Virus record (IMG/VR): IMGVR_UViG_3300020472_000203
Coordinates: 1 to 21,044 of that record
Reading direction: 5' to 3' (one strand)
DNA length: 21,044 nucleotides
From: a virus
The notes below the pieces were generated by a model. That model searched no databases. It saw nothing but the letters and a program-made list of their open reading frames with translations, and was not told where the DNA came from. Below are positions 1,124 to 19,803 of the stretch, piece after piece (within the stretch, counting starts at the first letter, position 1; the number at the start of each line of letters is the position of its first letter). The position numbers and the translations under genes are program-made.

Positions 1124-2509
1124 TTAGTAACCTATTCCGTAATTGTCCCCAAGTTCATCATAATCATTCCTAAAGATTGGTTCTAGTTCTGTTAGAGTCA
1201 TTGTTATTTGATATGCAGTCATTACACCATCTTCAAATGTTGCATAGTTACCATCAGGTGTATATTGAACAGTAAAAGAATTTATTGCACATTCTTTAAA
1301 CCTATTTAAGTATTTGTGTGTTTTTCCTTTATGTTTATATGCAATTTTCCAAGTATATGGGGATTCGAGGAATAAATTTGATTTACTTTTTGATGGTGCC
1401 ATTCCACTTTTAAAGAATCTTATAAGCTTAATTACTTGTTGGGCTTCCTCAGCACTTCTAGGAGCAAGTTTCCAACCAAAACTAAAAGGTCTTAGTGATG
1501 GATCTTTGAATAATAACTCCATATTTGGGTTTAGAATTTTACCTGTGGTTCTAGTTAAAAGTTGAGAACCAGTTCCTGAAGCCATTCCAGCAATTCCTGT
1601 TTTAAGGGCTTCTTCCATATCTGTACCACCTCCTCCAGAGGCTGCTCTACCCAAACTTTCTACTTCTGCAAGAGCACCACTAGCACCTTTTTCAATACCT
1701 GATAATGCAATATTTGCTAGTGCAGTATCCATAGGACCCATTTTATCTCCTCCCCATGAAACTGAATTACTGTCACTAATTCCTCCTGGAATTGGAAGTA
1801 CTACAGTACCTTTTGAATTTCTATTTTTAGTCGCTCTATCACCCCATCCTAAACCCTCTCTTGCTTTACCTTGATATTCTAATGCTTCAATTTTAATATA
1901 ATCTTGTCCAGAAGCTGCAATAGATGAAGGATATACTGCTACATAATTTCCACCTAGTCCTGATTTTATTCCACCACTGAATCCATTTATTTTTTTATTT
2001 TCAGGAGTATTTGCTATTGAACTTACTGCACCATCGCCAGTACCGTATGGATTAGTAGTATCATCTGATCCAGCAGCAGCAGTTTGTGTATTTTTTACGC
2101 TATTAGATTGATTTACTGAACCTGCTGGATCAAATGCTTGTACTCCAGAACCTGCTCCTCCATAGATTGCTTGAGTCGGAGGTGGTTGAGTTCTTCCATC
2201 CCATTCTTTACTAGCAACTTGAAGTGCTTGTTTTCTTACATTCGCAATATTTGATGGAGTAGAGAAAAAACTTGTTTCAGCAGAAGTTGTATTACTATTA
2301 ACTACAATGGTATTATTTCCCTGTCTTATAAATGCTACTTCAACACCTGTTCCATCTGCAGGAACATATCTATTAACTGTAATTTTTCCTGATTTTGCGT
2401 TAGTAGTGTAGTAGTATTGGTTAGTACCTAAAGTACCTTTAGGCATTACTCTATTACTTACTGCACTACCTCCATAAGAGGATTGCGCTGTATATGGAAG
2501 TGTTGCCAT
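1124..2509 (-). CDS. 48: Baseplate tail-tube cap protein gp48
   Basis: In T4, gp48 sits on the hub/baseplate and, with gp54, forms the platform on which the tail tube polymerises. The 461-aa product is longer than T4 gp48 (about 364). The conserved part is the C-terminal third (residues ~325-461): NPNMELLFKDPSLRPFSFGW, then a long helix with AEEAQQVIKLIRFFK, then AINSFTVQYTPDGNYATFEDG and a final YQITMTLTELEPIFRNDYDE. That order matches the tube-like beta fold of the gp48/gp54/gp19 family. The N-terminal two thirds are Gly/Ser/Asn-rich with beta-like segments and appear to be a cyanophage-type extension. A CTAAATA late-promoter-like motif lies 20 nt upstream, overlapping the stop of the preceding gene. 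Confidence 0.78.
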   Translation of the reverse strand: MATLPYTAQSSYGGSAVSNRVMPKGTLGTNQYYYTTNAKSGKITVNRYVPADGTGVEVAFIRQGNNTIVVNSNTTSAETSFFSTPSNIANVRKQALQVASKEWDGRTQPPPTQAIYGGAGSGVQAFDPAGSVNQSNSVKNTQTAAAGSDDTTNPYGTGDGAVSSIANTPENKKINGFSGGIKSGLGGNYVAVYPSSIAASGQDYIKIEALEYQGKAREGLGWGDRATKNRNSKGTVVLPIPGGISDSNSVSWGGDKMGPMDTALANIALSGIEKGASGALAEVESLGRAASGGGGTDMEEALKTGIAGMASGTGSQLLTRTTGKILNPNMELLFKDPSLRPFSFGWKLAPRSAEEAQQVIKLIRFFKSGMAPSKSKSNLFLESPYTWKIAYKHKGKTHKYLNRFKECAINSFTVQYTPDGNYATFEDGVMTAYQITMTLTELEPIFRNDYDELGDNYGIGY

Positions 2510-2528
2510 TATAGTGTATCTTTTTTAT

Positions 2529-2535
2529 TATTTAG
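2529..2535 (-). promoter_or_regulatory. Late-promoter-like CTAAATA upstream of gp48
   Basis: On the minus strand the sequence reads CTAAATA from 2535 to 2529, the form proposed for T4-type late promoters in cyanophages (T4 consensus TATAAATA). Its TAA is also the stop codon of the 149-aa gene (2534-2532). The gp48 ATG begins 19 nt further on, leaving room for a short leader. Confidence 0.45.
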
Positions 2536-2981
2536 CGTGGATTGAGTATGAATTTAGCATAAGGTATGGTAAGAAGGTCATCTAGTTCATTTCGCTGGAC
2601 AATATAGAGTTGTCCTGCTAGTTCGCTCCATGTATAGTTCCTATATTTTCGCCAATGAAAGTTCAATCCTCTAAATCCCCAAGGAAATAGTGCCACACAA
2701 GCAATTAGAGGATGTTGATCGTATGATTCACCAGGAGTTTTAGCATTATATACAAAGGTGTAGAAATTTCCTACATCAGGGACAGGAGTAACTGTGTCAT
2801 TTAGGGCACCCATTATTTCCAACATCATTTCTTCAGGATCATTGGTTTGGTTATTCAGATCACTTAAAAATTCACGGACACGATTATCTTCTTCTTGATC
2901 TCCATCCAATCCAAAAGCTTTCTTCTCTGCTTCTCTAGCAGCATCTCTATCTTTTCTTTGTTGTATTGTTAATCTTGGCAT
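2532..2981 (-). CDS. Conserved phage protein of unknown function between gp4 and gp48
   Basis: The 149-aa product is not confidently assigned. The N-terminus (residues 1-60) is highly charged and helical, beginning MPRLTIQQRKDRDAAREAEKK. The C-terminal half looks like a compact domain: VGNFYTFVYNAKTP, then DQHPLIACVALFPWGFRGLN, then FHWRKYRNYTW. From memory, small proteins with the pattern 'FY-F-Y-AKT ... YD-PL ... G--GLN-H' occur in several T4-like phages, which suggests a virion or packaging accessory, but I cannot name it. Its start overlaps the gp4 stop as TAATG, so translation is probably coupled to gp4. It could be a head-completion or DNA-end-protection partner of gp4; that is inference from neighbourhood only. 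Confidence 0.7.
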   Translation of the reverse strand: MPRLTIQQRKDRDAAREAEKKAFGLDGDQEEDNRVREFLSDLNNQTNDPEEMMLEIMGALNDTVTPVPDVGNFYTFVYNAKTPGESYDQHPLIACVALFPWGFRGLNFHWRKYRNYTWSELAGQLYIVQRNELDDLLTIPYAKFILNPR

Positions 2982-3421
2982 TAGTTAATACCCAATTCTT
3001 TTTCGGTGATGATTTTAAATTCAACTCTCTTATCTTTACACCATTCATCTGCTGCTTTCCATTTTGCTTGGTTAGTAGCATAGGTTTTACATTCGTAGAG
3101 GTATGATTTGGTCACATTTTTTCTTTGTTTGGGTGGTCTGGTTTGTTTTGCAGGTTTAACTTCTATAACATATGTTTTAATAACACCAGTATTTTCTTTT
3201 ACTTTTATAATAAAGTCTGGATAGTAACGACGGGTCTTACCATCAGGAGCACGGTAAGGTATAAAAAATTCTTCACTTCCCCATTCTACAATATTTTTAT
3301 TTTTATCACACCAATTACAGAATTTTCTTTCCCAAGAACTCCGACAAATAATATTTCTTACATCACCTTTATATTTCTTAGGTTTAGTAGGTTTAAATAG
3401 ACTTTTAATACTTTCTGCCAT
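2981..3421 (-). CDS. 4: Head completion protein gp4 (TnsA-like nuclease fold)
   Basis: gp4 (also called gp50/65 in T4) completes the DNA-filled head before tail joining. The family carries a TnsA-N/restriction-like nuclease fold. The 146-aa product shows the pattern in order: RSSWERKFCNW (Glu31), WGSEEFFIPY, RRYYPDFIIK (Asp69) and YVIEVKP (Glu87, Lys89), the E...D...ExK set expected for a PD-(D/E)xK metal site. T4 gp4 has equivalent 'SSWE', 'YFPDF' and 'EVKP' segments and a very similar length (about 150 aa). It is the first gene of the leftward operon. A perfect TATAAATA lies 34 nt upstream on the same strand. All putative active-site residues are present, so it is probably a functional nuclease. 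Confidence 0.85.
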   Translation of the reverse strand: MAESIKSLFKPTKPKKYKGDVRNIICRSSWERKFCNWCDKNKNIVEWGSEEFFIPYRAPDGKTRRYYPDFIIKVKENTGVIKTYVIEVKPAKQTRPPKQRKNVTKSYLYECKTYATNQAKWKAADEWCKDKRVEFKIITEKELGIN

Positions 3422-3463: not shown

Positions 3464-4291
3464 ATGCCTAACATAAGGTCAGTCTCGGACATTAAATCAA
3501 ATTTACTTAGACCATCTTTAACTTCTGTCTTTGAAGTTCAGATTGGACTACCTGGGTCTTCTCTTGGTACTCGTTTAAGATCGCTTTTAGGGACAGATCA
3601 AAGAAAGTTGAATTTAATGTGCAGTGAAGCAGTTCTTCCAGGATCTTCTTTAGCTACTACTGAAGTTAATAATGACTATACTGGTGTTACCGAGAGACAT
3701 GCATATAGAAGAATTTATGATGAGACTATTGATTTAAGTTTTTATGTTGATGCTGTAGATTATTTGCCTATTAAATTTTTTGAAGAGTGGATTAGTGGAA
3801 TAGTTAATGAAGATCAAAATGAAGCAAAAGCTCCAAACTATTTCTATAGAGTTCAATATCCTGATGATTATGTTGCGGCAGGATTAAAAGTAATAAAATT
3901 TGAAAAAGATTATACAGATCAGTATAATGATATAAAGATGACTGGTGGAGCAAAGTCTTATCGTGTACGAACTGGTACTAGATCAAAATTGGAATATGAA
4001 TTCATAAGAAGTTATCCTCGTAGTATAACCTCTATGCCAGTAAGTTATGATGGATCATCATTATTAAAGTGTAGTGTACAAATGACATATGTAAGATATG
4101 TTTTAAGTAGTGGTGGAGATGGAGGAAGTGATATAGGATTATATAATCCATTCCAACAAGCTCAATTTAATTCTAATGGAATTAGAGGAGTAGCAGCTAA
4201 TCTTGTTGATGCTGCTGTAGATAGAATAACTGGAAATGATTTCCTTGGAGATGTTGCTGGTGCTGTTGTTGGAGGTGGATTACCCTTCTAA
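3464..4291 (+). CDS. 54: Baseplate tail-tube initiator gp54-like protein
   Basis: gp54 binds the baseplate top after gp48 and starts tail-tube polymerisation. The 275-aa product (T4 gp54 about 320) begins with an N-terminal helix and a strand typical of tube-fold proteins (SLTSVFEVQIGLPG, residues ~19-32). It continues with MCSEAVLPGSSLATTEV, then YDETIDLSFYVDAVDYLPIK and FFEEWISGIVN. This 'Met-Cys-x-Ala-x-x-Pro-Gly ... small-molecule-like strand ... W-x-x-x' order is the same as T4 gp54 with 'MPENRLSYET ... PLVISFRMD ... MQDWVNSV'. The C-terminus is Gly/Ala/Val-rich. It opens the rightward operon. No Shine-Dalgarno is obvious before the ATG at 3464. A gp19-like tube role is a less likely alternative. 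Confidence 0.7.
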   Translation: MPNIRSVSDIKSNLLRPSLTSVFEVQIGLPGSSLGTRLRSLLGTDQRKLNLMCSEAVLPGSSLATTEVNNDYTGVTERHAYRRIYDETIDLSFYVDAVDYLPIKFFEEWISGIVNEDQNEAKAPNYFYRVQYPDDYVAAGLKVIKFEKDYTDQYNDIKMTGGAKSYRVRTGTRSKLEYEFIRSYPRSITSMPVSYDGSSLLKCSVQMTYVRYVLSSGGDGGSDIGLYNPFQQAQFNSNGIRGVAANLVDAAVDRITGNDFLGDVAGAVVGGGLPF

Positions 4292-4322: not shown

Positions 4323-5042
4323 ATGCCTTTACCAAAAATTAGTACTCCGACATATGAGTTGAAGTTACCGTCCAATGGACAAACTATTCAATATAGACCA
4401 TTTCTTGTAAAAGAAGAGAAGGTACTTGTAATCGCTTTAGAAAGTGAAGATAATAAGCAGATTACTACAGCAATTAAAGCAGTACTTAAATCATGTATTC
4501 AAACTAAAGGTGTAAAGGTAGATACACTTCCTACTTTTGATATTGAATATCTATTTCTTAATATTAGGGGTAAATCTGTTGGTGAGGAATTAGAAGTTAA
4601 TATTATTTGTCCTGATGATGAGACAACTCAAGTTCCAGTAATAATTAATTTGGATGATATACAGATTCAGAAGGATGAGAAGCATAATAATAAGATTAAA
4701 TTGGATAAGAATTTAATGATGGAAATGAAGTATCCATCTCTCGATGAGTTTATTAAAAATAATTTTGACTTTAATGAAACTAATCAAATGGATCAATCAT
4801 TTGCATTGATTGCATCTTGTATTGATAAAATTTATAGTGATGAAGAAGTATGGGCAACTGCAGATTGCACTAAGAAAGAAGTGAATGAATTTCTTGAGTC
4901 AATGAATTCATCACAGTTTAAGGAAATTGAGAAGTTTTTTGAGACAATGCCTAAACTTTCTCATACTGTCAAGGTTACTAACCCTAAGACAAAAGTGAAG
5001 AGTGATGTGGTCTTGGAGGGCTTAGCGTCTTTTTTCGCTTAG
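4323..5042 (+). CDS. 26: gp26-like baseplate hub / tail assembly chaperone candidate (zero-frame product)
   Basis: The 239-aa product resembles T4 gp26 (about 208 aa; T4_baseplate family). It opens MPLPKISTPTYELKLPS, then QTIQYRPFLVKEEKVLVIA (the conserved 'RPF-vKEeK-Ll-A' block), and TTAIKAVLKSCI, followed by DIEYLFLNIRGKSVGE and a short acidic beta region. The C-terminal half (residues ~140-239) is mainly helical, with YPSLDEFIKNNF. T4 gp26 is described as a hub assembly component. In this genome its position directly before tape-measure-like genes and its frameshift signal at 5030-5036 suggest it acts as the short form of a tail assembly chaperone, like lambda gpG. The zero-frame ending is ...LASFFA then TAG at 5040-5042. 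That chaperone role is inference. Confidence 0.8.
   Translation: MPLPKISTPTYELKLPSNGQTIQYRPFLVKEEKVLVIALESEDNKQITTAIKAVLKSCIQTKGVKVDTLPTFDIEYLFLNIRGKSVGEELEVNIICPDDETTQVPVIINLDDIQIQKDEKHNNKIKLDKNLMMEMKYPSLDEFIKNNFDFNETNQMDQSFALIASCIDKIYSDEEVWATADCTKKEVNEFLESMNSSQFKEIEKFFETMPKLSHTVKVTNPKTKVKSDVVLEGLASFFA
5015..5020 (+). promoter_or_regulatory. Internal Shine-Dalgarno-like GGAGGG upstream of slippery site
   Basis: GGAGGG lies inside the gp26 coding sequence, 9 nt before the slippery heptamer. In E. coli dnaX and other bacterial -1 sites, an internal SD about 10 nt upstream of the slip site stimulates frameshifting by pairing with the ribosome's anti-SD. It is also about 24 nt before the ATG of the 60-aa ORF, too far to serve as a normal initiation site. 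Confidence 0.5.
5030..5036 (+). other. Programmed -1 ribosomal frameshift site (T TTT TTC)
   Basis: The bases are T at 5030, TTT at 5031-5033 and TTC at 5034-5036 in the gp26 reading frame, exactly the X XXY YYZ arrangement. A tandem -1 slip keeps both tRNAs on Phe-type pairing, and the ribosome continues with CGC (5036-5038), TTA, GCT, ATG at 5045. This is in frame with the 60-aa ORF and there is no stop between. The predicted fusion runs from 4323 to 5224: 238 gp26 residues plus 63, or 301 aa. Without a slip, translation stops at 5042. Slippage itself cannot be shown from sequence. Confidence 0.7.
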
Positions 5043-5044
5043 CT

Positions 5045-5227
5045 ATGGTGCATATGAGTTTGGAAGGTTATTTCAAACTTAATTTTGCTTTAATGCAGTA
5101 CCATAAATATTCATTAACAGAAATTGAAAATATGATGCCGTGGGAACGGGACATCTATGTGGCACTTCTTCGACAACATTTGGAAGAGGAGGAGTTAAAA
5201 CGCAAACAACAGCAAGCGAATGCCTAG
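5045..5227 (+). CDS. Small ORF downstream of gp26, likely expressed as a -1 frameshift extension
   Basis: The 60-aa ORF has an ATG at 5045, three bases after the gp26 stop. No Shine-Dalgarno sequence is at a normal distance. Its frame continues back through the slippery site without a stop, so the more likely product is a gp26 fusion of 301 aa. The residues form a helical domain: EGYFKLNFALMQYHKYSLTE, MPWERDIYVALLRQHLEEEE and a basic Lys/Gln tail. 'W-x-x-D-x-Y' near the end of a short helical protein is typical of the T-domain part of gpGT-like tail chaperones. The C-terminus overlaps the next gene start at 5220 by 8 nt. T4 gp51 or gp28 homology is possible, but I do not recognise it firmly. 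Confidence 0.65.
   Translation: MVHMSLEGYFKLNFALMQYHKYSLTEIENMMPWERDIYVALLRQHLEEEELKRKQQQANA
5055..5081 (+). other. Predicted hairpin downstream of the frameshift site
   Basis: Positions 5055-5065 pair with 5071-5081, giving about 11 bp with two G-U pairs and a 5-nt loop (GGTTA). The strong core is AGTTTG against CAAACT. It begins 18 nt after the heptamer, longer than the usual 5-9 nt for a stimulatory structure, so its role is uncertain. It also lies just inside the small ORF. Confidence 0.35.
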
Positions 5228-7409
5228 CAACAATAAAAATATAATAGGGGATTTAAGGGGGAAGTTCGACCCTCATTATCAACTTGCGGCTCAAGTTGAT
5301 AATCTTGGAAAGGATTTACCTATTCAAGTTGCTCAGTTGCATAAGACAATGAGTAAGTCCTTTGGTATGCAAAGGAAGACTTTGGTGAGAGTTCTTGCAC
5401 TTGAGAAAAAAGTTGCTGAATTAGAAGCAGAAAGAGAAGCAGCAGAGGAAGTAGTACAAGCAGTAGAAGAGGCAGCAGAAGCAGTAGAAGAGGCAGCAGA
5501 AGAATTAGGTGTTGAGGATGAGATACCTGAAGGTTTAGATGATCTCTTAGATGATGTACGTGGAGAGAAAGAAGAAGTAGGTGGAACAACAACTCCTAAG
5601 AAACCAACAGCAACTGCCACAAAGAAAAGGAAACCAAGGATAAGACTTAGGAAGTCATCCATCAGTGCTGCATCTTTAAAGAAAGGAACTGCATTAGATG
5701 ATGACTTTGCCTCAAGGGTGATGGGTAAAAATGAAAAAGGAGGATATTTAAGTAAGGAAGAAAGAATAGCAAGATTCAAGAAAACAACAATTTCAACTGA
5801 TGGTTTAAAAGCATCGGATTCAGAATCAGAATCAGAAAAAGGTGGTGCATTAGCAAAAGGATCAGGAAATTTAATAGGATCTCTTAAGACTATTGATAAT
5901 AGTGTTAATGGTATTATAGAAGTATTAAAGGATAGTAATAAAGAAGATGCAGATGCAAGAGCAGACGCACGAAAAGAAGATGAAAAAAAGAAAAGAAAAA
6001 AATCAGAAAGTAAATTAGAAGGAGTAGGTGCTGGATTAATAGCAGCAGGAGATAAAATTCTTGCACCAGTTAAGAGTATTTGGTCTAAGATATTAGATTT
6101 TATACAAACTATATTCTTTGGAAATATTGCTCTTAAATTATGGAAGTGGTTTGCTAATCCAGCAAATTCAGAAAAAGTTGCAAGTGTTTTTAGATTCTTG
6201 AAAGATTGGTGGCCTGTTTTAGTAGCAGGTATTATGGCAGTTGTTGGACCAGGTATAACATTTACAGTAGGTTTAGTTGCTTTATTAATGTGGGGTATTC
6301 CTAAGATTATTGATGCTGTAAAATGGGTTGGAAGTTTATTTGGTATAGGTGTAAAGAAAGAAATAGAAAATATTGGTGCAGAATCAGAAAAAACCAATGC
6401 TGATATAGGGAAGGGTATAGAAAGTGATTTAACTAAAGATACTGATAAAATATTAAATGATGCTCCAGATACGGATAAAAAACCTGATAAAGTAGTTGAG
6501 TCAGAACAAAATGCACAAAATTTAAAAGATAGTTCTTCAACCGCACAAGAACCAAAGAAATTTGCTACAGGTGGTTTCGTATCTGGTCCTGGTGGAGTAG
6601 ATAAAGTACCTGCAAAACTAACTGCTGGTGAATTTGTCATGTCTAAAGGAGCAGTTCAGAAGTATGGTGCAAATACTCTTGCTGGTATGAATGCTGCTGG
6701 AGGCGGAACTAATAGACCAACAATGGGTAGATATAATGAAGGGGGTGTCATAACTGATCCAAAAGAGAAAGCACAGCAAGAAGCATATATGCTTAAGTTT
6801 GTTAATGAAGAACGAGCATTGCAGGGTATGGAACCTTTAAATAATCTAACTTATGCTCCAGGTGTGGAACTTACAAAGATGAGAGGTCCAGGTCCAAGAA
6901 CAAACGAAACATCAAATACTAATTTTGATTTTGATAAGGGTATCAAGACCACATCAAGATCAAAAACAGTTGATGGTAAAACTACTTTTGGTGGATCAAT
7001 GAGTCAGATAACACCAGAAGAGAGGGAGAAGTTTTTTGCAGAAAATCCACACGCAGCACAATTAGTAATGCTCAAGGATCAGATAGAATTAGATAATTTA
7101 GGTGCTGATATATCTGCCAGTGCTAAAATGAATGGTGGTGGATTAGTTCAGAAATTTGCTGGTGGTGGGTTAGTTCAGAACTTTGCTGGTGGTGGTCCTG
7201 TAGCAAGAGCTAAAATTTATCCTAAAAAATCTTCTTTAGCTCCTATATCACCTCCATCTTCTCCAGTTTATAAAATTGCTATGGATTCGACGACAGCACA
7301 GAGTCAAAAAACATCTGCTATTGCATCGAATGATCAAGATTTACCTCAATTTAGTGCTTCTGCAATGCGTTCTGGGTCGAAAATCAAAACTTTAGGAATA
7401 TCGGTATAA
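5220..7409 (+). CDS. Tail tape-measure-like protein 1
   Basis: This 729-aa protein is probably a tape-measure-type tail protein, located where the family sits after tail chaperones. Visible features in order: an N-terminal helix and coiled coil (residues ~61-96) with AVEEAAE heptads; a Lys/Glu-rich linker; a hydrophobic region (~330-372) beginning WWPVLVAGIMAVVGPG; and a Gly-rich C-terminal half. There GGFVSGPGGVDKVPAKLTAG followed by EFVMSKGAVQKYG is the motif seen at the end of many phage tape measures. Repeated GGGLVQ units lie at ~639-656. Tape measures set tail length and enter the host membrane during DNA delivery. It could equally be gp29 or a second lumen protein. Translation is probably coupled to the upstream ORF because the start overlaps its end. 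Confidence 0.7.
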   Translation: MPSNNKNIIGDLRGKFDPHYQLAAQVDNLGKDLPIQVAQLHKTMSKSFGMQRKTLVRVLALEKKVAELEAEREAAEEVVQAVEEAAEAVEEAAEELGVEDEIPEGLDDLLDDVRGEKEEVGGTTTPKKPTATATKKRKPRIRLRKSSISAASLKKGTALDDDFASRVMGKNEKGGYLSKEERIARFKKTTISTDGLKASDSESESEKGGALAKGSGNLIGSLKTIDNSVNGIIEVLKDSNKEDADARADARKEDEKKKRKKSESKLEGVGAGLIAAGDKILAPVKSIWSKILDFIQTIFFGNIALKLWKWFANPANSEKVASVFRFLKDWWPVLVAGIMAVVGPGITFTVGLVALLMWGIPKIIDAVKWVGSLFGIGVKKEIENIGAESEKTNADIGKGIESDLTKDTDKILNDAPDTDKKPDKVVESEQNAQNLKDSSSTAQEPKKFATGGFVSGPGGVDKVPAKLTAGEFVMSKGAVQKYGANTLAGMNAAGGGTNRPTMGRYNEGGVITDPKEKAQQEAYMLKFVNEERALQGMEPLNNLTYAPGVELTKMRGPGPRTNETSNTNFDFDKGIKTTSRSKTVDGKTTFGGSMSQITPEEREKFFAENPHAAQLVMLKDQIELDNLGADISASAKMNGGGLVQKFAGGGLVQNFAGGGPVARAKIYPKKSSLAPISPPSSPVYKIAMDSTTAQSQKTSAIASNDQDLPQFSASAMRSGSKIKTLGISV
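5460..5501 (+). repeat. Perfect 21-bp tandem duplication coding coiled-coil heptads
   Basis: Positions 5460-5480 and 5481-5501 are identical 21-bp copies. Each encodes the seven-residue heptad AVEEAAE, so the duplication lengthens the coiled coil by exactly one heptad without changing the frame. Confidence 0.85.
7134..7187 (+). repeat. 27-bp tandem repeat in tape-measure-like gene
   Basis: Two near-identical 27-bp units (7134-7160 and 7161-7187) encode GGGLVQKFA and GGGLVQNFA, and a partial third begins GGGPVA. The glycine-rich repeats are typical of the C-terminal region of tape-measure proteins. Confidence 0.8.
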
Positions 7410-7413
7410 TATT

Positions 7414-9408
7414 ATGGCTTGGGGAGCAGTTCTAAAAGGAGTAGCGAAAGGAGTAGGAAAGGGGGCAAGAAAGGTTGCTACAGATAAACTTCTGAATAGA
7501 AAAAAGAATGTAAAGAATAGAAGAGCAAAGGCACAAGAAGCCATGGGAGGTGGTGAAGAGAGGGGTGGAGCACTTGCTATTCGTCCTACTACACCTTTAG
7601 CTCCTACTATAGGTGGTGGTGCTCTTGCTACTATTGGAGGTAGTGGTGGAGGTAGTGGTGGAGGTGGTGGTGCAGCAGCAGATAATACACCAGAAGGGAC
7701 TGCACTTAATATATCAACTAATATTATTAAAGTTGAGAATCTTTTGAAGAATTCTTATACAATGAAGCAGAAGGTAAGGGAAGATGCTAGAAAACAATCA
7801 AAGGTTGATGAGGATAAGGAGCAGGAAAAAGCATTAGAGAAAGTAAAGAAACCTAAAAGTAAGATTAAAATTCCTGGTGCAAAAGCAGCAGAAGGTCTTT
7901 TAGGTAAAGTATTTAATTTTATTGGTGCGATGCTGCTTGGTTGGATTGCAGTTAGGTGGCAGGAGTGGTTGCCAAAATTAATTGCTATTTTAAAACCTAT
8001 AGCAGCAATCGCAGATTGGATTATTAATGTAGCTGGTGTAATTTTAGATGCATTAGCGGGAGTTATTGATTTTGGTTATAAACTTGTTGATAAGATGGAG
8101 GGGTGGGTAAAAGATATCTATGGAGAAGAAGGGGCTGAGAAATTTAAGACTTTTATGACTAATCTTAAGGATCTTATTGCTGGATTCTTAGTGTGGAAGA
8201 TAATTGGTGAAAAGCTGTTCAAGGCTTTCGTTGGCGTGATAAAGAATGCCTGGAAAGCAGTTACTGGAGCTATTAGAAAAGCATGGGTATCATTAAAAAG
8301 GATGGTGGGTCGTAAGGCCAGGATGTTCTTTAAGAATTTGGTTAAAAGGCTTGGTGATGGTGCTAAAACTGTTGGTGGAAAAATACTTAATGTAGGTAAG
8401 AATATTGGTGGAAAAGTACTTGGAGGAGCTAAGAATGTTTTAGGTAAAGTTGGTGGTATATTCAGACAAGGTGGTGGGAAGTTAGCAAGTACTGGTGCAG
8501 GTAAAGTAGCAGGTAAGGTTGGTGGATTTGCTGCTAAGATATTTGGTAAAGCAGCTGGTGTTATTGGTCCTGCAATAAAGGGTGCAATGCCAGCAATAAA
8601 GGGATTTGCTAAAAGAATTCCTATTTTTGGTTCTCTTATTGTTGCTCTTGTTTCTCTTATGTCAGGGGAACCAGTTGGGCAAGCACTCTTTAAAGCAGTT
8701 GGTGCTGGATTAGGTGGGGCACTAGGAACATTCATACCTATTCCTTTCCTTGGAACGCTTCTTGGAGAGACCTTTGGTATGTTTATTGGTGATGCTCTTT
8801 ATTATGGAATTGTAAAGGGAGATTGGAAGCAAGCGGGAGTAATTCTTAAGCAGCATTTGATGGGTATATTTAAGGCAGGTAAAGCTGTAGGGCAATGGAT
8901 TGGTGGTGGACTTGGTAGATTTGTAGACAATTTAATGAAAAAAGACCCTATTGGAATAAAAGAGGGTTTGGGAAGACGTGCTGCTGCAACTAAGATAGCA
9001 GAAATTTTAGGAATGAAGAAGTGGTTAAATGGGTTGGGGTATGTTGAGGATGGTCAAGTAACTAAGTTTCCTAATATTTTAAATTTACTTAATCCTCTTA
9101 AGTTTTATCCTTTATTATTCAAATCTTTCTTTCCTCCTAGTGAAGAAGGAGGAGGAGTAAGCATACCTGCAGGGGGAGGAAAAGAAAAGGTGGCAATAAC
9201 TTCTACTAATAAAAATCAAGGAGTTGTAGATTCTATATCTACTCGTGCTTCCTATGAAGATTCATCTGCAGGGACAATTAGAATCTCACCTCCAACTACT
9301 ACATCTTCAGAAACATCTAGTGGAGACTCTGAGGGTGGTGCTGTTAAGTTTATTCCTATATCATCAGGTGGTGGAGATCCTTATGAAGAACTTGATTTCT
9401 TTGGTTAA
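7414..9408 (+). CDS. Tail tape-measure-like protein 2 / tail lumen protein
   Basis: The 664-aa product is hydrophobic and helical, probably a tape-measure or lumen protein. It begins MAWGAVLKGVAKGVGKGARK, then a Gly/Ser linker (GGGSGGGGGAAA, ~87-96). Hydrophobic helices follow at ~165-219 (FIGAMLLGWIAV) and a second at ~248-268. Residues ~310-400 form a Gly/Lys-rich amphipathic region with VGGKILNVGKNIGGKVLGGA. More hydrophobic segments lie at ~401-416 (IPIFGSLIVALVSLM) and ~430-467. The tail is Gly/Ser/Thr-rich. Such a mix of amphipathic and hydrophobic segments fits a protein that leaves the tail and inserts into the host membrane. It is close to T4 gp29 length (590). Functional assignment is moderate. 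The 5' gap is 4 nt after the preceding gene. Confidence 0.6.
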   Translation: MAWGAVLKGVAKGVGKGARKVATDKLLNRKKNVKNRRAKAQEAMGGGEERGGALAIRPTTPLAPTIGGGALATIGGSGGGSGGGGGAAADNTPEGTALNISTNIIKVENLLKNSYTMKQKVREDARKQSKVDEDKEQEKALEKVKKPKSKIKIPGAKAAEGLLGKVFNFIGAMLLGWIAVRWQEWLPKLIAILKPIAAIADWIINVAGVILDALAGVIDFGYKLVDKMEGWVKDIYGEEGAEKFKTFMTNLKDLIAGFLVWKIIGEKLFKAFVGVIKNAWKAVTGAIRKAWVSLKRMVGRKARMFFKNLVKRLGDGAKTVGGKILNVGKNIGGKVLGGAKNVLGKVGGIFRQGGGKLASTGAGKVAGKVGGFAAKIFGKAAGVIGPAIKGAMPAIKGFAKRIPIFGSLIVALVSLMSGEPVGQALFKAVGAGLGGALGTFIPIPFLGTLLGETFGMFIGDALYYGIVKGDWKQAGVILKQHLMGIFKAGKAVGQWIGGGLGRFVDNLMKKDPIGIKEGLGRRAAATKIAEILGMKKWLNGLGYVEDGQVTKFPNILNLLNPLKFYPLLFKSFFPPSEEGGGVSIPAGGGKEKVAITSTNKNQGVVDSISTRASYEDSSAGTIRISPPTTTSSETSSGDSEGGAVKFIPISSGGGDPYEELDFFG

Positions 9409-13962: not shown

Positions 13963-16900
13963 ATGGCAAAACCCACATTTAATCTTTTTGGTCCTATAAC
14001 GAAGGATGATATCAGAGTTGGATACATCTCTACTGATAGAGGGTATGTAGAGGGTAGGAGTATTTGTGATGCCAATCTTCATGCACAGAAGAATCCTGGT
14101 GCTGTTTTTATCTTTAAGCCAGATAGAACAACTGTTGAATTTTTAAGTATTAATGAAGTTAATAAATTAGATCCATCTACTGCTGATACCACTATTAGTT
14201 GTCCAGATGGTTTGAAGTTAGAGGGTGAACCTGATCCACCATCTGTACAGTTTTTGGGTGGGGGTGGAATAGGTGCTGTAGCTAATCCTGTGATTGGTAA
14301 TGATGGATCTGTAATGGCAATTGATTTAGTGAATGGTGGATATGGTTATCAATACCCACCTATTGTTAAGTTGAAAGATGATAGGGGTCTTGGTGTAGGT
14401 GCAATTATTAATGTTGGATTGGGGACGATTGCAGATCAAACCATATATTATGCTGATGAAGAAGATTTTGAAGAAGTTCGCTTATGCCCAGATCCTTTTA
14501 CAGATCCTTCAAAAAGTGATGGTGGTAAAGAGTCAAAAGATGCATCAAAAAGATCTGAATATGGAAGAAGATTTGGTCCAAGTGGTAAAGATTTAGGTGC
14601 TTGGAGACCAAGAACCTACACAGAAGATAAGAAAATTCCATTTGAGGATGTATTAGATGATTATCTTAAGAAGTTAGCAGTATCAGGCAAAGACTGGTGG
14701 ACCACCAGAAAAGAACCACCTTTAAGAGTGAATACTGATGGTAAACAAAGTAGAACAGTTTATGATGTTAGTCATTGGGCATGGGGTGGTGGAACTGCTA
14801 CTGCTTTAAGTGATGTTGAATTTGAAATTTATTGGCATTCTCCTGGTAGAACCACAGGATTGGGATTTGAATTTGTTGCTCAAGATGGATCTCATTCATT
14901 TATAATAGGAAGTGGTACTAAAACAATAGGTCAAGGTAGAACGAAAAGTGTTTTTCAAGTTAAAGAGAATGTAACATATAATGTAAAACCAATTGGAAAA
15001 AAATCTAAGAACATGGGTCCTTTACCAAAGGCATCATCTTCAACAGCACCAAAAAAATTAAATGTAGGTACTGTTAATGAATTAGCTAATCAGGGACTTC
15101 TGAAAAAACTTGGTGGGACTGCAGGTAAAGATATTACTAAATTTAAACAACAGGCAGTAGGTACAGGAGATAAAATATTTGCTGATTTTCTTGCTAGTGG
15201 AGATGATGCTGATGATATTCAAGTACAGGCCAATAGAGGTAAGTTTACTGCATCCAATCAAAGATGGGTTAAAGGTACTGGTGGTAGAAGGCAAACTTAT
15301 GATTTAACTTATAGATTCCAAACTGGTAAAGTTGAGGTTGCTCCTAGTTTTATGAATAGACATGCTATATCTCCAGTTCCTCCTTCTAATGTAAAGGGAT
15401 CTGATAATTCAGGAAAGTGGTATTCTTTTGAATGGGATGTAGATTTTCCTTATGATGGTGAGTATAAGTTTAGAGCACAGTGTGATAATAAGGCACGACT
15501 TTATATTGATAATAAACAATTATCCAGTTTTCAAATAGGATTTGGAGGAGCATCGGGGCATGTACTGTCTAGTCCTTCAGGACTTAAAGAAACAGTTGAG
15601 GGTGGACTTCATAAGATGAGATTGGATCTTTATAATGAAAGTATTAAGCAACAATTACCTATATCTCAACCCCCTCCAGCTTCAACTAGTGAAGTAATTT
15701 TTAAGATTGTTGGTTCATCTTGGTTTACTGATGGAGTAAGAATAGAGGAACTTGATATTAATGAAGTAAAGGATTTTACTTTCTCAGATACTAAGGGTCA
15801 GTTAAATAAATCTTATACTAGAAAGATTGATTTTGGTAGAAAATATAAAGTGGTATTTACTAGTAAGGAAAGTTTAAATGTAGAATTAAGAACAAAAGGT
15901 TTAAATGTCATTCAAATGGAGAATGCTGGTGATGGATCTTTTGATGATGTAGTTATATCTGCGAGTACAGGACAGTTCACTGATCTTAAAGGAAATGTTG
16001 CTTACTTTAGTGTACCTTATCCTGAAAAGAAGGGTAATAAATCTGAAAGTTCTCAAGGTATAAAAACAAAGCAGATTTTTAATACTGTTGATTATATTAA
16101 TAAAGCAAATAGACAATTATGGAGAACGAATATTTTTGCACAAGGTGGATTTTTAAATGATAATGGAGTTTGTCCTTTTGATACTAATCTTCAATTAAAA
16201 GATAATCCTTACGCAGGAACTCATACAATTAATTGGCCGAATGTTAATTTTCCTATTGATGGAAATTATACTATTGATGTAGCAGTTGATGATAATGTTA
16301 AATTGAAAATTGGTGATCAAGTTAACATTGATAAGAAAGGTTTTAAAGAAGGTACTAGTGTAAGCACTGGTACATTAAGAGTTACTCGATTTATTAAGCA
16401 AGGAACTTATCCTGTTATTGCTGAATTGGAGCAAATTGCAGGAGGAGCATTTTCATTCAAGGCTCCTGATGGTAATATTAAAAAAGCTCTTGATGTTAAA
16501 TTTAAAGTAACATCTGCGTCCATGTATGCGAATAAGATTACTATTCCTGGATTACTTTCTGTAGGAAAACAATATAAAGGATCTCAAATAAGTCAGATTT
16601 TAAATAAGAAAGTTGAAGTTAATAAGGATTATGATGTTATATTGAATAGTGATCAAAGTACTAATATAAGATTAAGAATAAAGGATGATGGTAAAAGATT
16701 AGAAATGGAAGATTGGAAAGATGGTGATTGGCAGGATATGGTATGTACGGTAACTCAAGGAGAATTTCATAGTATTCAAGGAAATAGGTGCAAGTTTAGG
16801 ATAAATCAAACTGTTAAGGGTAGTAACCCAATGGCACTAGCAATTAATATTGAGAGTAGTTTTTCAGAGAAGGAAGTAGATGCTCAAAAATCTTGGAATG

Positions 16901-19803
16901 AAAATCCTATGGGAGTTGCATTGACTATTGATTCTCCAATACCACCAATTCCTCAAGAACCTGTTCCTTTACAAGAAGGAAGGTGTCCTAATAATCCATT
17001 TTGGACAACTAGATTTCCTGGTGCTAAAGAAAGATGGTTCCCTGTCAAACATAATCAATGGGGTGATTTGTTGAATAAGCATGGAATTTCACCAACCATT
17101 CCATTTAATAAGACTACTAATCCTTTAATTGATGTATCATTTGAAGTTCAGTGGAATTCTCCACATAGAAATAGTGGTTTGGGGTATAGATTTGTTGCTC
17201 AAGATGGATCTCATTCCTTTACGATAAGAGATATTAGTAAAACAGTAAGTCAGGGTCAGAGGATTGATAAGATTAAAGTTAAGGAAAATATAACTTATGA
17301 TGTAAAAGTAATTGGCCGAAGATCAGCATCTCAAGGATCTATTAATGATGCAAGAGGTGATAACTCTAAGGTTACTGAATTGGCAGAACAAGGTCTTCTT
17401 AAAACGATGGGCAAGACCAAGGGTGGAAATCTTCCTAAATTGGATGGTGGTAGTGGTGATATAATTTTTGCTGATTTTCTTGACAGTCTTGATGATGCTG
17501 ATGATATTCAAATACAAGCCGGAGTAGGTAAATTCACTTCTTCTAATCCAAGGAAGGTAAATGCTCTTAAAGGTCAAAGAACCACTTATGATCTAACTTA
17601 TAGGGTGGATAAAGTACCCTCTATGGAAACTGGTAGTTTCTCAAATAGTTGGACTAAAGATTTTCCATTTGGTGGGTATTATAAAGCTTTATTAGAAGTT
17701 GATGACATTGGTGAACTTTGGATTGATGATGAGAAAGTAATTGACCGTAAAGTTCCTGGTAAAGAAGAGAAATTAATTTATATTGATGGACCAACTTCTC
17801 AAGAAGAGTTTGATTCAAAAGGACCTACATCTCATACAATAAAAGTAGTTGCTCAGAATACTAAATCTGAAAAAACAAAAGAAATTGATGCGAAGATTTT
17901 CAATACTTTAGATTGGATAGGTGGGGGATCATCTAGTCCAACATATAAAACAATTAAATTTAAAGTTTCTACAGCATCCTTGTATGGTAATGGAATTAAG
18001 ATACCTGAACTTGGTATTGCGGCAAGTAAAAAATATAACGGTGCTAATGTTAATAAAACTTTTGAGAGGGAAGTAGAAGTAAATAAGGTTTATGATGTAG
18101 AATTGACAAGTAATGCTACTCCACCAGGACTTATTTCTAGAGATATTATATTTCAAGGTCTTCATCCTGTTAATAACCCTATTCAAGTTAATGATAGTAG
18201 GAGAAGAATGAATTTAAAAGATGGTCATGGTACAGATTCTAATGCATCTTTTATAATTGAGAGTGGGGATGTTAGATTCTCTGCTGATGGTAAGAGTTTA
18301 GAGGGAAGTGGTGAATCAACTATAACTTTAACATGGAATGATAAAAGGAAAGCGGGTCGTGCTATTGATAAAATTACGATAGCAAATATCACATGGACTA
18401 GAAGTGGAACGAGAGGTACTGAGAGTCATAAGATTACTATTCCTGGTAATACTTCAAGGGCAGCAGGAGTACGATTAAGGACTTCAGGTGAATCTGTACT
18501 TCAAATGGAAGATCATACTGATAGTTCTTGGGATGATGTTCAATGTTCTGCTACTGAAGGAAGATTTTTTGATTTTAAACCTGGTGCAAATAATGCGAGT
18601 TGTAAATTTGTAGTTACTGCTGCTACTAAAGTATCTGGTGGTGTTGCAGGTGGTACAACAAGAGAAGGTGTTACTTATCAAGGTCCTCATTTATTTCATT
18701 TTACTCATAAGTTATGGGGTAAGGTAATTAATAAAGAAGGTATTTCTCCTATTGGATCTCCTAATCAAAGTTTATCTGAACCTAATTCTAATATTTTGGG
18801 AACCAAGATTTTAACTTGGAAGAATGTTAATTTCCCAGAATCAGGGGAATATGATATACTTTTTGTTGCTGATGATATTGGAGAATTGTATATTGGTGAT
18901 AGTTCTATTCCTAAGATAAAAGTAACGCAAAATCATCCAACAAATGAGTATGCTACTGAATCAATTAAATTAACTAAAGGTAAGCATGATATATCAGTTC
19001 ATCTTACCAATCTTTATACTAACGATCTTTTCCAAACCAATCCTACAGGAGTTGCTCTTAAGATTACTAAAAAGATGGCAGTAGGAACAGGAATCTATAG
19101 AACTTGGAAGGAGAATCCCTTAGGAATTTCTGCAAAACTTATTCCCCCACCTTGTCCTAAAAAGGTATCTGGTAAGGGTGTTGTTGTTGATCCAGTGGTT
19201 GTAGATCCTGGTAACGGATATCCTCCTGGTGGTGGAGGTGGATATCCTGCTGCTTTAAAATTAAAAGATGCTGTTATTCTAAATGGTGGGATAAATTATG
19301 ATCAGGATAAGGATACAGTAACACTTTTGGATCCAATTACAGGAGATTCTAATGGAGCAAAGCTTTCTTTATGTGAAGTTGGTCCATTTGGACAAATAGA
19401 GAAGGTATGTATAGATGCACCTGGATTCTTTGATAGAATGCCTACTGTTGTTGTTGACTCTGATACTGGTGTTAATTTAGATTTGTCATTACAATTTGAA
19501 GTTGTTAGGGATCCTGTAGTAGAAGACTTGCCATTGGTACAAGTTACTGATCTTGTTGGACTCAAGCAGACAGGATACTATCGAGGTAGACCTTACTATG
19601 GTGCTGTATTCTATCAAGATGGTGTTAAATATGCTGGTTGGTATGAAACTGCTGGTGAATTAGTACAGATCTATGAAACAATGCAAGAAAGTATTGATGC
19701 TAGGGTAACTACACCTCCATCTGCCATTCTTAGACAAGGTTCAGATACTAGTAGTAATGATCCACGACTTAATATTCCAGGTACTCCTGAAAATCTTACA
19801 TAG
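13963..19803 (+). CDS. Giant 1946-aa modular virion structural protein with PA14-like repeats
   Basis: A large phage structural protein, probably baseplate- or tail-associated; its specific role is unknown. The N-terminus (1-60) has VGYISTDRGYVEGRSICDAN and FIFKPDRTTVEFLSINEV; I believe similar N-termini occur in other marine myovirus tail proteins. A Gly-rich beta segment follows (~85-160). Then come repeated modules, residues approximate: A (284-455), B (484-561), C (577-684), B (752-826), C (843-950), A (1057-1217), B (1225-1303), C (1329-1554, interrupted), B (1613-1685). The B modules (FPYDGEYKFRAQCDNKARLYID) resemble PA14 domains, known for carbohydrate binding in adhesins. A second Gly-rich beta region (~1730-1850) precedes a conserved C-terminus with YYRGRPYYGAVFYQDGVKYA. 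It could be a host-recognition adhesin or a baseplate decoration protein. Confidence 0.7.
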   Translation: MAKPTFNLFGPITKDDIRVGYISTDRGYVEGRSICDANLHAQKNPGAVFIFKPDRTTVEFLSINEVNKLDPSTADTTISCPDGLKLEGEPDPPSVQFLGGGGIGAVANPVIGNDGSVMAIDLVNGGYGYQYPPIVKLKDDRGLGVGAIINVGLGTIADQTIYYADEEDFEEVRLCPDPFTDPSKSDGGKESKDASKRSEYGRRFGPSGKDLGAWRPRTYTEDKKIPFEDVLDDYLKKLAVSGKDWWTTRKEPPLRVNTDGKQSRTVYDVSHWAWGGGTATALSDVEFEIYWHSPGRTTGLGFEFVAQDGSHSFIIGSGTKTIGQGRTKSVFQVKENVTYNVKPIGKKSKNMGPLPKASSSTAPKKLNVGTVNELANQGLLKKLGGTAGKDITKFKQQAVGTGDKIFADFLASGDDADDIQVQANRGKFTASNQRWVKGTGGRRQTYDLTYRFQTGKVEVAPSFMNRHAISPVPPSNVKGSDNSGKWYSFEWDVDFPYDGEYKFRAQCDNKARLYIDNKQLSSFQIGFGGASGHVLSSPSGLKETVEGGLHKMRLDLYNESIKQQLPISQPPPASTSEVIFKIVGSSWFTDGVRIEELDINEVKDFTFSDTKGQLNKSYTRKIDFGRKYKVVFTSKESLNVELRTKGLNVIQMENAGDGSFDDVVISASTGQFTDLKGNVAYFSVPYPEKKGNKSESSQGIKTKQIFNTVDYINKANRQLWRTNIFAQGGFLNDNGVCPFDTNLQLKDNPYAGTHTINWPNVNFPIDGNYTIDVAVDDNVKLKIGDQVNIDKKGFKEGTSVSTGTLRVTRFIKQGTYPVIAELEQIAGGAFSFKAPDGNIKKALDVKFKVTSASMYANKITIPGLLSVGKQYKGSQISQILNKKVEVNKDYDVILNSDQSTNIRLRIKDDGKRLEMEDWKDGDWQDMVCTVTQGEFHSIQGNRCKFRINQTVKGSNPMALAINIESSFSEKEVDAQKSWNENPMGVALTIDSPIPPIPQEPVPLQEGRCPNNPFWTTRFPGAKERWFPVKHNQWGDLLNKHGISPTIPFNKTTNPLIDVSFEVQWNSPHRNSGLGYRFVAQDGSHSFTIRDISKTVSQGQRIDKIKVKENITYDVKVIGRRSASQGSINDARGDNSKVTELAEQGLLKTMGKTKGGNLPKLDGGSGDIIFADFLDSLDDADDIQIQAGVGKFTSSNPRKVNALKGQRTTYDLTYRVDKVPSMETGSFSNSWTKDFPFGGYYKALLEVDDIGELWIDDEKVIDRKVPGKEEKLIYIDGPTSQEEFDSKGPTSHTIKVVAQNTKSEKTKEIDAKIFNTLDWIGGGSSSPTYKTIKFKVSTASLYGNGIKIPELGIAASKKYNGANVNKTFEREVEVNKVYDVELTSNATPPGLISRDIIFQGLHPVNNPIQVNDSRRRMNLKDGHGTDSNASFIIESGDVRFSADGKSLEGSGESTITLTWNDKRKAGRAIDKITIANITWTRSGTRGTESHKITIPGNTSRAAGVRLRTSGESVLQMEDHTDSSWDDVQCSATEGRFFDFKPGANNASCKFVVTAATKVSGGVAGGTTREGVTYQGPHLFHFTHKLWGKVINKEGISPIGSPNQSLSEPNSNILGTKILTWKNVNFPESGEYDILFVADDIGELYIGDSSIPKIKVTQNHPTNEYATESIKLTKGKHDISVHLTNLYTNDLFQTNPTGVALKITKKMAVGTGIYRTWKENPLGISAKLIPPPCPKKVSGKGVVVDPVVVDPGNGYPPGGGGGYPAALKLKDAVILNGGINYDQDKDTVTLLDPITGDSNGAKLSLCEVGPFGQIEKVCIDAPGFFDRMPTVVVDSDTGVNLDLSLQFEVVRDPVVEDLPLVQVTDLVGLKQTGYYRGRPYYGAVFYQDGVKYAGWYETAGELVQIYETMQESIDARVTTPPSAILRQGSDTSSNDPRLNIPGTPENLT
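14812..15327 (+). repeat. Module A copy 1 within the giant gene
   Basis: Encodes a domain starting DVEFEIYWHSPGR and ending RQTYDLTYRF. It is repeated at 17131-17613. A 26-bp stretch (14872-14897) is identical to 17191-17216 and encodes FVAQDGSHS. Confidence 0.75.
15412..15645 (+). repeat. PA14-like module B copy 1 within the giant gene
   Basis: Pattern FEWDVDFPYDGEYKFRAQCD then ARLYIDNK and HKMRLDLYN. Further copies are at 16216-16440, 17635-17870 and 18799-19017. The order 'FP--G-Y ... D---(K/E)L-I-' resembles the PA14 fold. Confidence 0.6.
15691..16014 (+). repeat. Module C copy 1 within the giant gene
   Basis: Begins EVIFKIVGSSWFTDGVRI and includes VELRTKGLNVIQMEN, then DDVVISASTGQFTDLKG. 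It is the first of three copies; the second is at 16489-16812 and the third at 17947-18624. Confidence 0.65.
16216..16440 (+). repeat. PA14-like module B copy 2 within the giant gene
   Basis: Pattern INWPNVNFPIDGNYTIDVAV, then DDNVKLKIGDQVNI, and TYPVIAELEQI at the end. Confidence 0.6.
16489..16812 (+). repeat. Module C copy 2 within the giant gene
   Basis: Begins LDVKFKVTSASMYANKI and includes IRLRIKDDGKRLEMED, then VCTVTQGEFHSIQGN. The copy is compact, with no insertion. Confidence 0.65.
17131..17613 (+). repeat. Module A copy 2 within the giant gene
   Basis: Encodes DVSFEVQWNSPHR to TYDLTYRV, clearly homologous to the first copy, with ADFLDSLDDADDIQIQA matching ADFLASGDDADDIQVQA. The copies differ in the central Lys/Ala-rich linker. 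Confidence 0.75.
17635..17870 (+). repeat. PA14-like module B copy 3 within the giant gene
   Basis: Pattern NSWTKDFPFGGYYKALLEVD, then DIGELWIDDEKVI and SHTIKVVAQNT. Confidence 0.6.
17947..18624 (+). repeat. Module C copy 3, split by an insertion
   Basis: Begins KTIKFKVSTASLYGNGI and resumes as VRLRTSGESVLQMED, then CSATEGRFFDF. Between DVELTSNATP and VRLR lies about 115 aa (18124-18468) that the other copies lack. Confidence 0.65.
18799..19017 (+). repeat. PA14-like module B copy 4 within the giant gene
   Basis: Pattern LTWKNVNFPESGEYDILFVA, then DDIGELYIGDSSI and KHDISVHLTNL. 'DDIGEL' is shared exactly with copy 3. Confidence 0.6.

Follow-up and report, generated by a model that had tools for sequence, protein, structure and literature searches.

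A putative programmed −1 frameshift joining gp26-like and gp51-like reading frames in a cyanophage tail assembly chaperone locus

Organization of the gp26-gp51 locus

The window analysed here, the whole stretch of 21,044 nucleotides of the IMG/VR virus record IMGVR_UViG_3300020472_000203, carries on its plus strand an open reading frame of 239 residues (4323-5042) that matches the T4 gp26 family profile PF12322 (E 6.8e-77; 258.5 bits against a cut-off of 24.5 for this curated profile) and phrog_150 (E 2.9e-81), and that would encode the gp26-like short form of a tail assembly chaperone (TAC-N). Its product ends in LEGLASFFA, followed by TAG. Directly upstream on the same strand lies a gene for a tail tube or tube-initiator protein (3464-4291; PF23849 Phage_TTP_2, E 8e-16; phrog_45 tail tube, E 2.6e-34), and downstream are two long plus-strand ORFs of 729 and 664 residues (5220-9408). 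An earlier note on this sequence had placed tape-measure-like genes at this position; the two long ORFs are there, but their identity as tape measures is weakly suggested, mainly by position, with a weak phrog_167 tape-measure match for the second ORF (E 0.0014) and no significant match of either to the annotated tape measure of the pelagiphage HTVC008M.

Near the end of the gp26-like ORF the zero-frame codons read TCT TTT TTC GCT TAG, which places a slippery heptamer T_TTT_TTC in zero-frame phase (5030-5036) and the TAG stop one codon past it (5040-5042), the G of this stop being where the next −1 frame codon begins. A GGAGGG sequence resembling a Shine-Dalgarno (SD) element lies 9 nt before the heptamer (5015-5020, with the core AGGG at 5017-5020), and an 11-bp hairpin of −10 kcal/mol when folded alone is predicted 18 nt past it (5055-5081). 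The −1 frame is open from 5' of the heptamer through position 5227, and the extension comprises 63 codons and a stop (5036-5227, plus strand). A −1 slip would therefore yield a product of 301 residues (238 + 63) with the junction ...ASFF-RLAMVHMSLEGYF.... This frame also contains a 60-residue ORF whose ATG, at 5045, is located 2 nt past the gp26 stop with no ribosome site at normal spacing. The earlier note had built its proposal of a lambda-like frameshift on these same elements, and all of them, including the stop-free passage from the slip to the 60-residue ORF, are present.

Two other genes of the window have features of their own. A protein of 1946 residues (13963-19803) contains internally repeated segments, e.g. 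...GLGFEFVAQDGSHSFIIG... and ...GLGYRFVAQDGSHSFTI..., which suggests a duplicated module, and a head-closure gene on the minus strand (2981-3421; phrog_218) matches the N-terminal domain of TnsA-like endonucleases (PF08722, E 4e-24).

The slippery heptamer is invariant among cyanophage loci

We compared the heptamer, the SD-like element and the fusion frame, as the earlier note had advised, across the 138 distinct cyanophage loci that two IMG/VR scans yielded with the window locus counted in; these loci are mutually related, so that their counts are not independent events and conservation counts overstate independence. For Vibrio D528 the IMG/VR scan gave no relatives, and for phiA8-29 it returned phiA8-29 itself and no other relative. 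The comparison was extended to 16 diverse isolate genomes (Syn9, S-PM2, BUCT-ZZ01, ME01, HTVC008M, pf16, phiM7, ORM_20, OLIVR6, YB07, X1, D491s, VH7D, EniLVp02, P19 and avDM12), and copy number was compared in 24 whole genomes.

In every locus (138/138) the heptamer sits at −10 relative to the stop of gp26. Elsewhere in gp26 phenylalanine is encoded by TTC in 27% of cases (419/1568), and the other Phe-Phe pairs are written TTC TTT (98) or TTT TTT (39) and never TTT TTC. The stop itself is TAG in 125 of the 138 relatives, while among the other long ORFs of these loci TAG is the rarest stop (30/354, with 211 TAA and 113 TGA). The 16 isolates have the same −1 layout with an in-phase T_TTT_TTC or T_TTT_TTT, a set that covers Kyanoviridae, the pelagiphage HTVC008M, pf16, phiM7 and ORM_20, as well as OLIVR6, YB07, X1 and Vibrio and Aeromonas Straboviridae.

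A single match to X_XXY_YYZ is common in AT-rich DNA, and the heptamer might thus lie by chance beside a decayed or mis-annotated gene. We consider the probability of this negligible: it is refuted by the conservation of the site in every locus and by the absence of any other in-phase TTTTTTC in 31,486 sites, and the −1 frame encodes a conserved gp51 family.

An SD-like element and hairpins in two registers accompany the slip site

The AGGG core is kept in 135/138 loci, compared with about 53 expected from synonymous draws, and its spacing to the heptamer is 9 nt in 113 loci and 8 nt in 22. Where the Glu codon is GAA, the next Gly codon is GGG in 22 of 25 loci, and where Glu is GAG it is GGG in 7 of 113; this compensation between the two codons points to selection on an RNA motif and not on the protein.

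The 66 nt downstream of the heptamer have a mean folding energy of −14.3 kcal/mol versus −10.2 kcal/mol after within-column synonymous shuffling, a difference of more than 20 s.d., whereas control windows inside gp26 give folding z values of about −3. Two hairpin registers account for this signal. In register 1 the stem lies 11-24 nt past the heptamer (62 loci), and in register 2, which is the hairpin of the earlier note, it lies 19-45 nt past it, and 53 of the 138 loci form 8 or more of its 9 inner pairs. Either register is found in 111/138 loci and both in only 4, while the shuffles expect 64.7 ± 3.9 for either. A single conserved hairpin was also considered and rejected, since default RNAalifold finds none, slid controls are not zero and a choice between two registers fits the data better. 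The hairpin is real and its position is not fixed, and both the SD-like element and the hairpins are under synonymous selection.

These accessory elements bear on whether the ribosome or the polymerase would slip. The run of 6 T, which reaches 7 in pf16 and HTVC008M, could in principle allow transcriptional slippage to produce a fusion mRNA. In the cyanophage loci, however, TTC is always used and selection keeps the run from exceeding six T, although longer runs would favour polymerase slippage; moreover, the codon phase is kept and the elements under selection are of the ribosomal type, which makes transcriptional slippage very improbable.

The −1 frame is probably read from upstream of the first ATG

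The 60-residue ORF belongs to the gp51 "baseplate hub assembly catalyst" family (phrog_634, profile match E 2e-29), so that the extension can be described as a gp51-like C-terminal tail (TAC-C), and a Pfam search with this ORF gave no meaningful family. The same ORF has a second phrog match, to the C-terminal end of the gp26 profile (the last 38 positions of phrog_150, 244-281; E 3e-5), which is expected if some members of that profile are natural fusions. No stop interrupts the −1 frame over 75 nt in any of the 138 loci.

Relatives annotate a separate gp51 gene from an ATG near 5045, and the ORF could accordingly be an independent gp51 translated by termination-reinitiation 2 nt past the gp26 stop, with the heptamer incidental. 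An ATG is indeed present at +5 in 94/138 loci and at +14 in 132/138, and with most relatives having an ATG soon after the stop, the short ORF may sometimes be initiated on its own. On the other hand, in 44/138 loci the codon at +5 is a Leu codon (CTA, CTG, CTC, TTA and so on), three loci have no ATG before +53, that is, until well inside the conserved domain, and the −1 frame residues around and upstream of the first ATG stay conserved even where this ATG is replaced by Leu, a pattern that fits reading from upstream and not initiation. The SD-like element, at least 24 nt from the ATG of the 60-residue ORF, is too far away to serve it, the heptamer never varies although codon bias disfavours TTC, and T4 carries the tail and a gp26-like domain on a single polypeptide. 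Taken with these observations, an independent gp51 as the sole explanation is unlikely, and we favour translation of the tail through a −1 frameshift.

The annotated gp51 genes of Syn9 (3271-3414 of the segment examined) and HTVC008M (2561-2698 of the segment examined) start inside the conserved domain and truncate the tail, their starts having been misplaced inward because no ATG exists further upstream.

A tail assembly chaperone would be made in two forms

We also examined the predicted structure of the gp26-like protein. The model has a pLDDT of 82, and its best PDB match was the HK97 tail assembly chaperone, ranked first by Foldseek with a poor E-value (0.54). The N-terminal domain gave VIA Z scores of 8.0 for 2OB9, 8.0 for 3FGX, 7.1 for YqbN (3KLU) and 5.1 for 5IR0, with the next unrelated structure at 2.7. 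These Z scores are moderate, and the alignment to the HK97 chaperone is confined to the N-terminal ~90 residues (about 1-86 to 1-88). Sequence searches with gp26 and with the 60-residue ORF found no relative of solved structure, and identity to the HK97 chaperone (2OB9) and YqbN, whose fold the predicted N-terminal domain resembles, is about 5-11%; unlike these proteins, gp26 has ~150 further residues outside the matched region. The predicted N-domain fold supports the assignment as a tail assembly chaperone, short of proof.

By comparison among loci, the short ORF has a conserved −1 site close to its end and an open extension behind it, which is the G/GT-type arrangement. Together with the fold prediction, this lends support to the suggestion of the earlier note that gp26 works as a G/GT-type chaperone in cyanophages. 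We estimate a probability of about 90%, on the sequence evidence, that −1 frameshifting lets this one gene yield both a short and a long form of a tail assembly chaperone. Most ribosomes would terminate at 5042 and release the 239-residue short form, while a minority would pause on the heptamer, where the two tRNA-Phe would slip back one base, aided by the SD-like element and the downstream hairpin, and would read on to produce the 301-residue long form (gp26 plus gp51 tail, TAC-NC). If lambda is a guide, the tape-measure protein would be coated by numerous short-form molecules and a small number of long-form ones, whose tails would bring in tube or hub subunits, and the virion need not retain either form. 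We infer cellular slippage and the chaperone roles, and take the frameshift rate, stoichiometry and binding partners by analogy from lambda.

The likeness to lambda gpG/gpGT is one of layout: shared are a short form with a −1 extension, a tube gene upstream, a slip site close to where the first ORF ends and the probable chaperone role. The lambda G domain is smaller, the lambda heptamer is G_GGA_AAG, unlike the T_TTT_TTC found here, and selection on an SD-like element and hairpins is a feature of the present locus. The bacterial dnaX −1 signal (PMC5009743) likewise combines an upstream SD-like element, a slippery heptamer and a downstream stem-loop, but its heptamer is A_AAA_AAG and its frameshift truncates the protein, whereas here the frameshift would extend it.

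T4 and its nearest kin have two genes instead of a frameshift

The earlier note had further suggested that T4 gp26 and gp51 are related in the same way, and the sequences agree with it. T4 gp26 (208 residues) and gp51 (249 residues) align with the whole of PF12322 (E 9e-64 and 4e-52, respectively) and with each other; gp51 alone carries the C-terminal tail, being PF12322 plus tail, while gp26 is PF12322 alone. On sequence grounds the two are paralogues. Among the 24 whole genomes, 18 have one PF12322 gene, all with the C-terminal tail in the −1 frame, and 6 (T4, CC31, ZHF, 44RR, ZZ1 and Klebsiella CP-p-KP-21068) have two PF12322 loci, of which one is short and the other bears the tail; the frameshift layout and two copies never occur together. 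In the tree every gp26 and gp51 of the two-gene phages falls on one side of a branch supported at 95/94, which is consistent with one duplication. The switch from frameshift to two genes would have taken place within Straboviridae, because the frameshift is retained in VH7D, EniLVp02, P19 and avDM12. In T4 and its closest relatives the same two proteins would come from genes 26 and 51, born of one duplication, and the locus suggests how gene duplication can replace a frameshift.

Two of the two-gene genomes deserve separate mention. In Klebsiella phage CP-p-KP-21068 (2501-3792 of the segment examined) the gp51-like and the gp26-like gene stand in tandem on the same strand, overlapping by 4 bases, whereas the T4 pair is divergent; this tandem is possibly an intermediate layout after duplication. 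In Acinetobacter phage ZZ1 gp51 (2501-3255 of the segment examined) consists of two PF12322 pieces in different frames of the deposited record, where the gene appears broken, either by sequencing error or by a real break.

The abstract of a 2022 study on these phages reportedly names genes 26 and 51 and describes frameshifting as kept in several T4-like groups. That study (Vladimirov, Gautam & Davidson 2022, Virology 566:9-15), as represented by its title and the papers citing it, identified the tail assembly chaperone genes of T4-like phages together with a two-gene alternative: PRFect 2024 (PMC10885494) refers to it for the occurrence of a short and a long gene copy in T4-like phages, and the phage Adele paper (PMC12846349) for the polyT slip sites of their TAC-N genes. 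The TAC-N and TAC-NC of that study (genes 26 and 51) would be the same gene family under the same proposal as here, so that the frameshift arrangement in T4-like phages was, from these sources, already published in 2022 and the present locus is a further example. The main texts of GeneTack 2013 (PMC3711429) and PRFect 2024 make no mention of cyanophages or baseplate genes. The earlier note had expected a frameshift to recast the role of gp26 in T4-like tail assembly, an expectation that was not new after the 2022 proposal, and the T4 tail review (PMC3004832) already counts gp26 and gp51 among the hub assembly chaperones and describes gp51 as required yet absent from the particle. T4 has long been cited as the exception to the conserved G-T tail frameshift ("except T4" in Atkins et al. 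2016, PMC5009743), and our data agree with the 2022 explanation, as relayed by the citing papers, of either one frameshifted gene or two genes.

Ackermannviridae have the tail without a canonical heptamer

Ackermannviridae and kin have a single gp26 gene with a conserved gp51-like C-terminal tail in the −1 frame right after the stop. The slip position holds NTT TTY only (ATT TTC, CTT TTC or CTT TTT), at best a U_UUY tetramer with no canonical heptamer, and several of these genomes have no ATG ahead of the conserved tail. The tail may be expressed from a weaker slip site or by another mode.

The cyanophage locus offers a candidate three-part recoding signal, in which AGGG and T_TTT_TTC are followed by a hairpin that adopts either of two mutually exclusive registers. 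We tentatively propose, at slightly less than even odds, that cyanophages use this signal and that Ackermannviridae make the long chaperone through the lone U_UUY slip. Neither the three-part signal nor the U_UUY variant was found in the literature, in which the 2022 study was represented by its title and citing papers, and both may be new.

The comparison indicates annotation errors, with cyanophage gp51 listed as a separate truncated gene and the tail missing in several Ackermannviridae records. It is unannotated in those of Kuttervirus, Limestonevirus, Taipeivirus and phiEa2809; in the segments examined from Ackermannviridae and kin, the tails lie at 2280-2460, 2300-2470, 2280-2460, 2255-2420, 3660-3870, 3730-3950 and 2205-2400.
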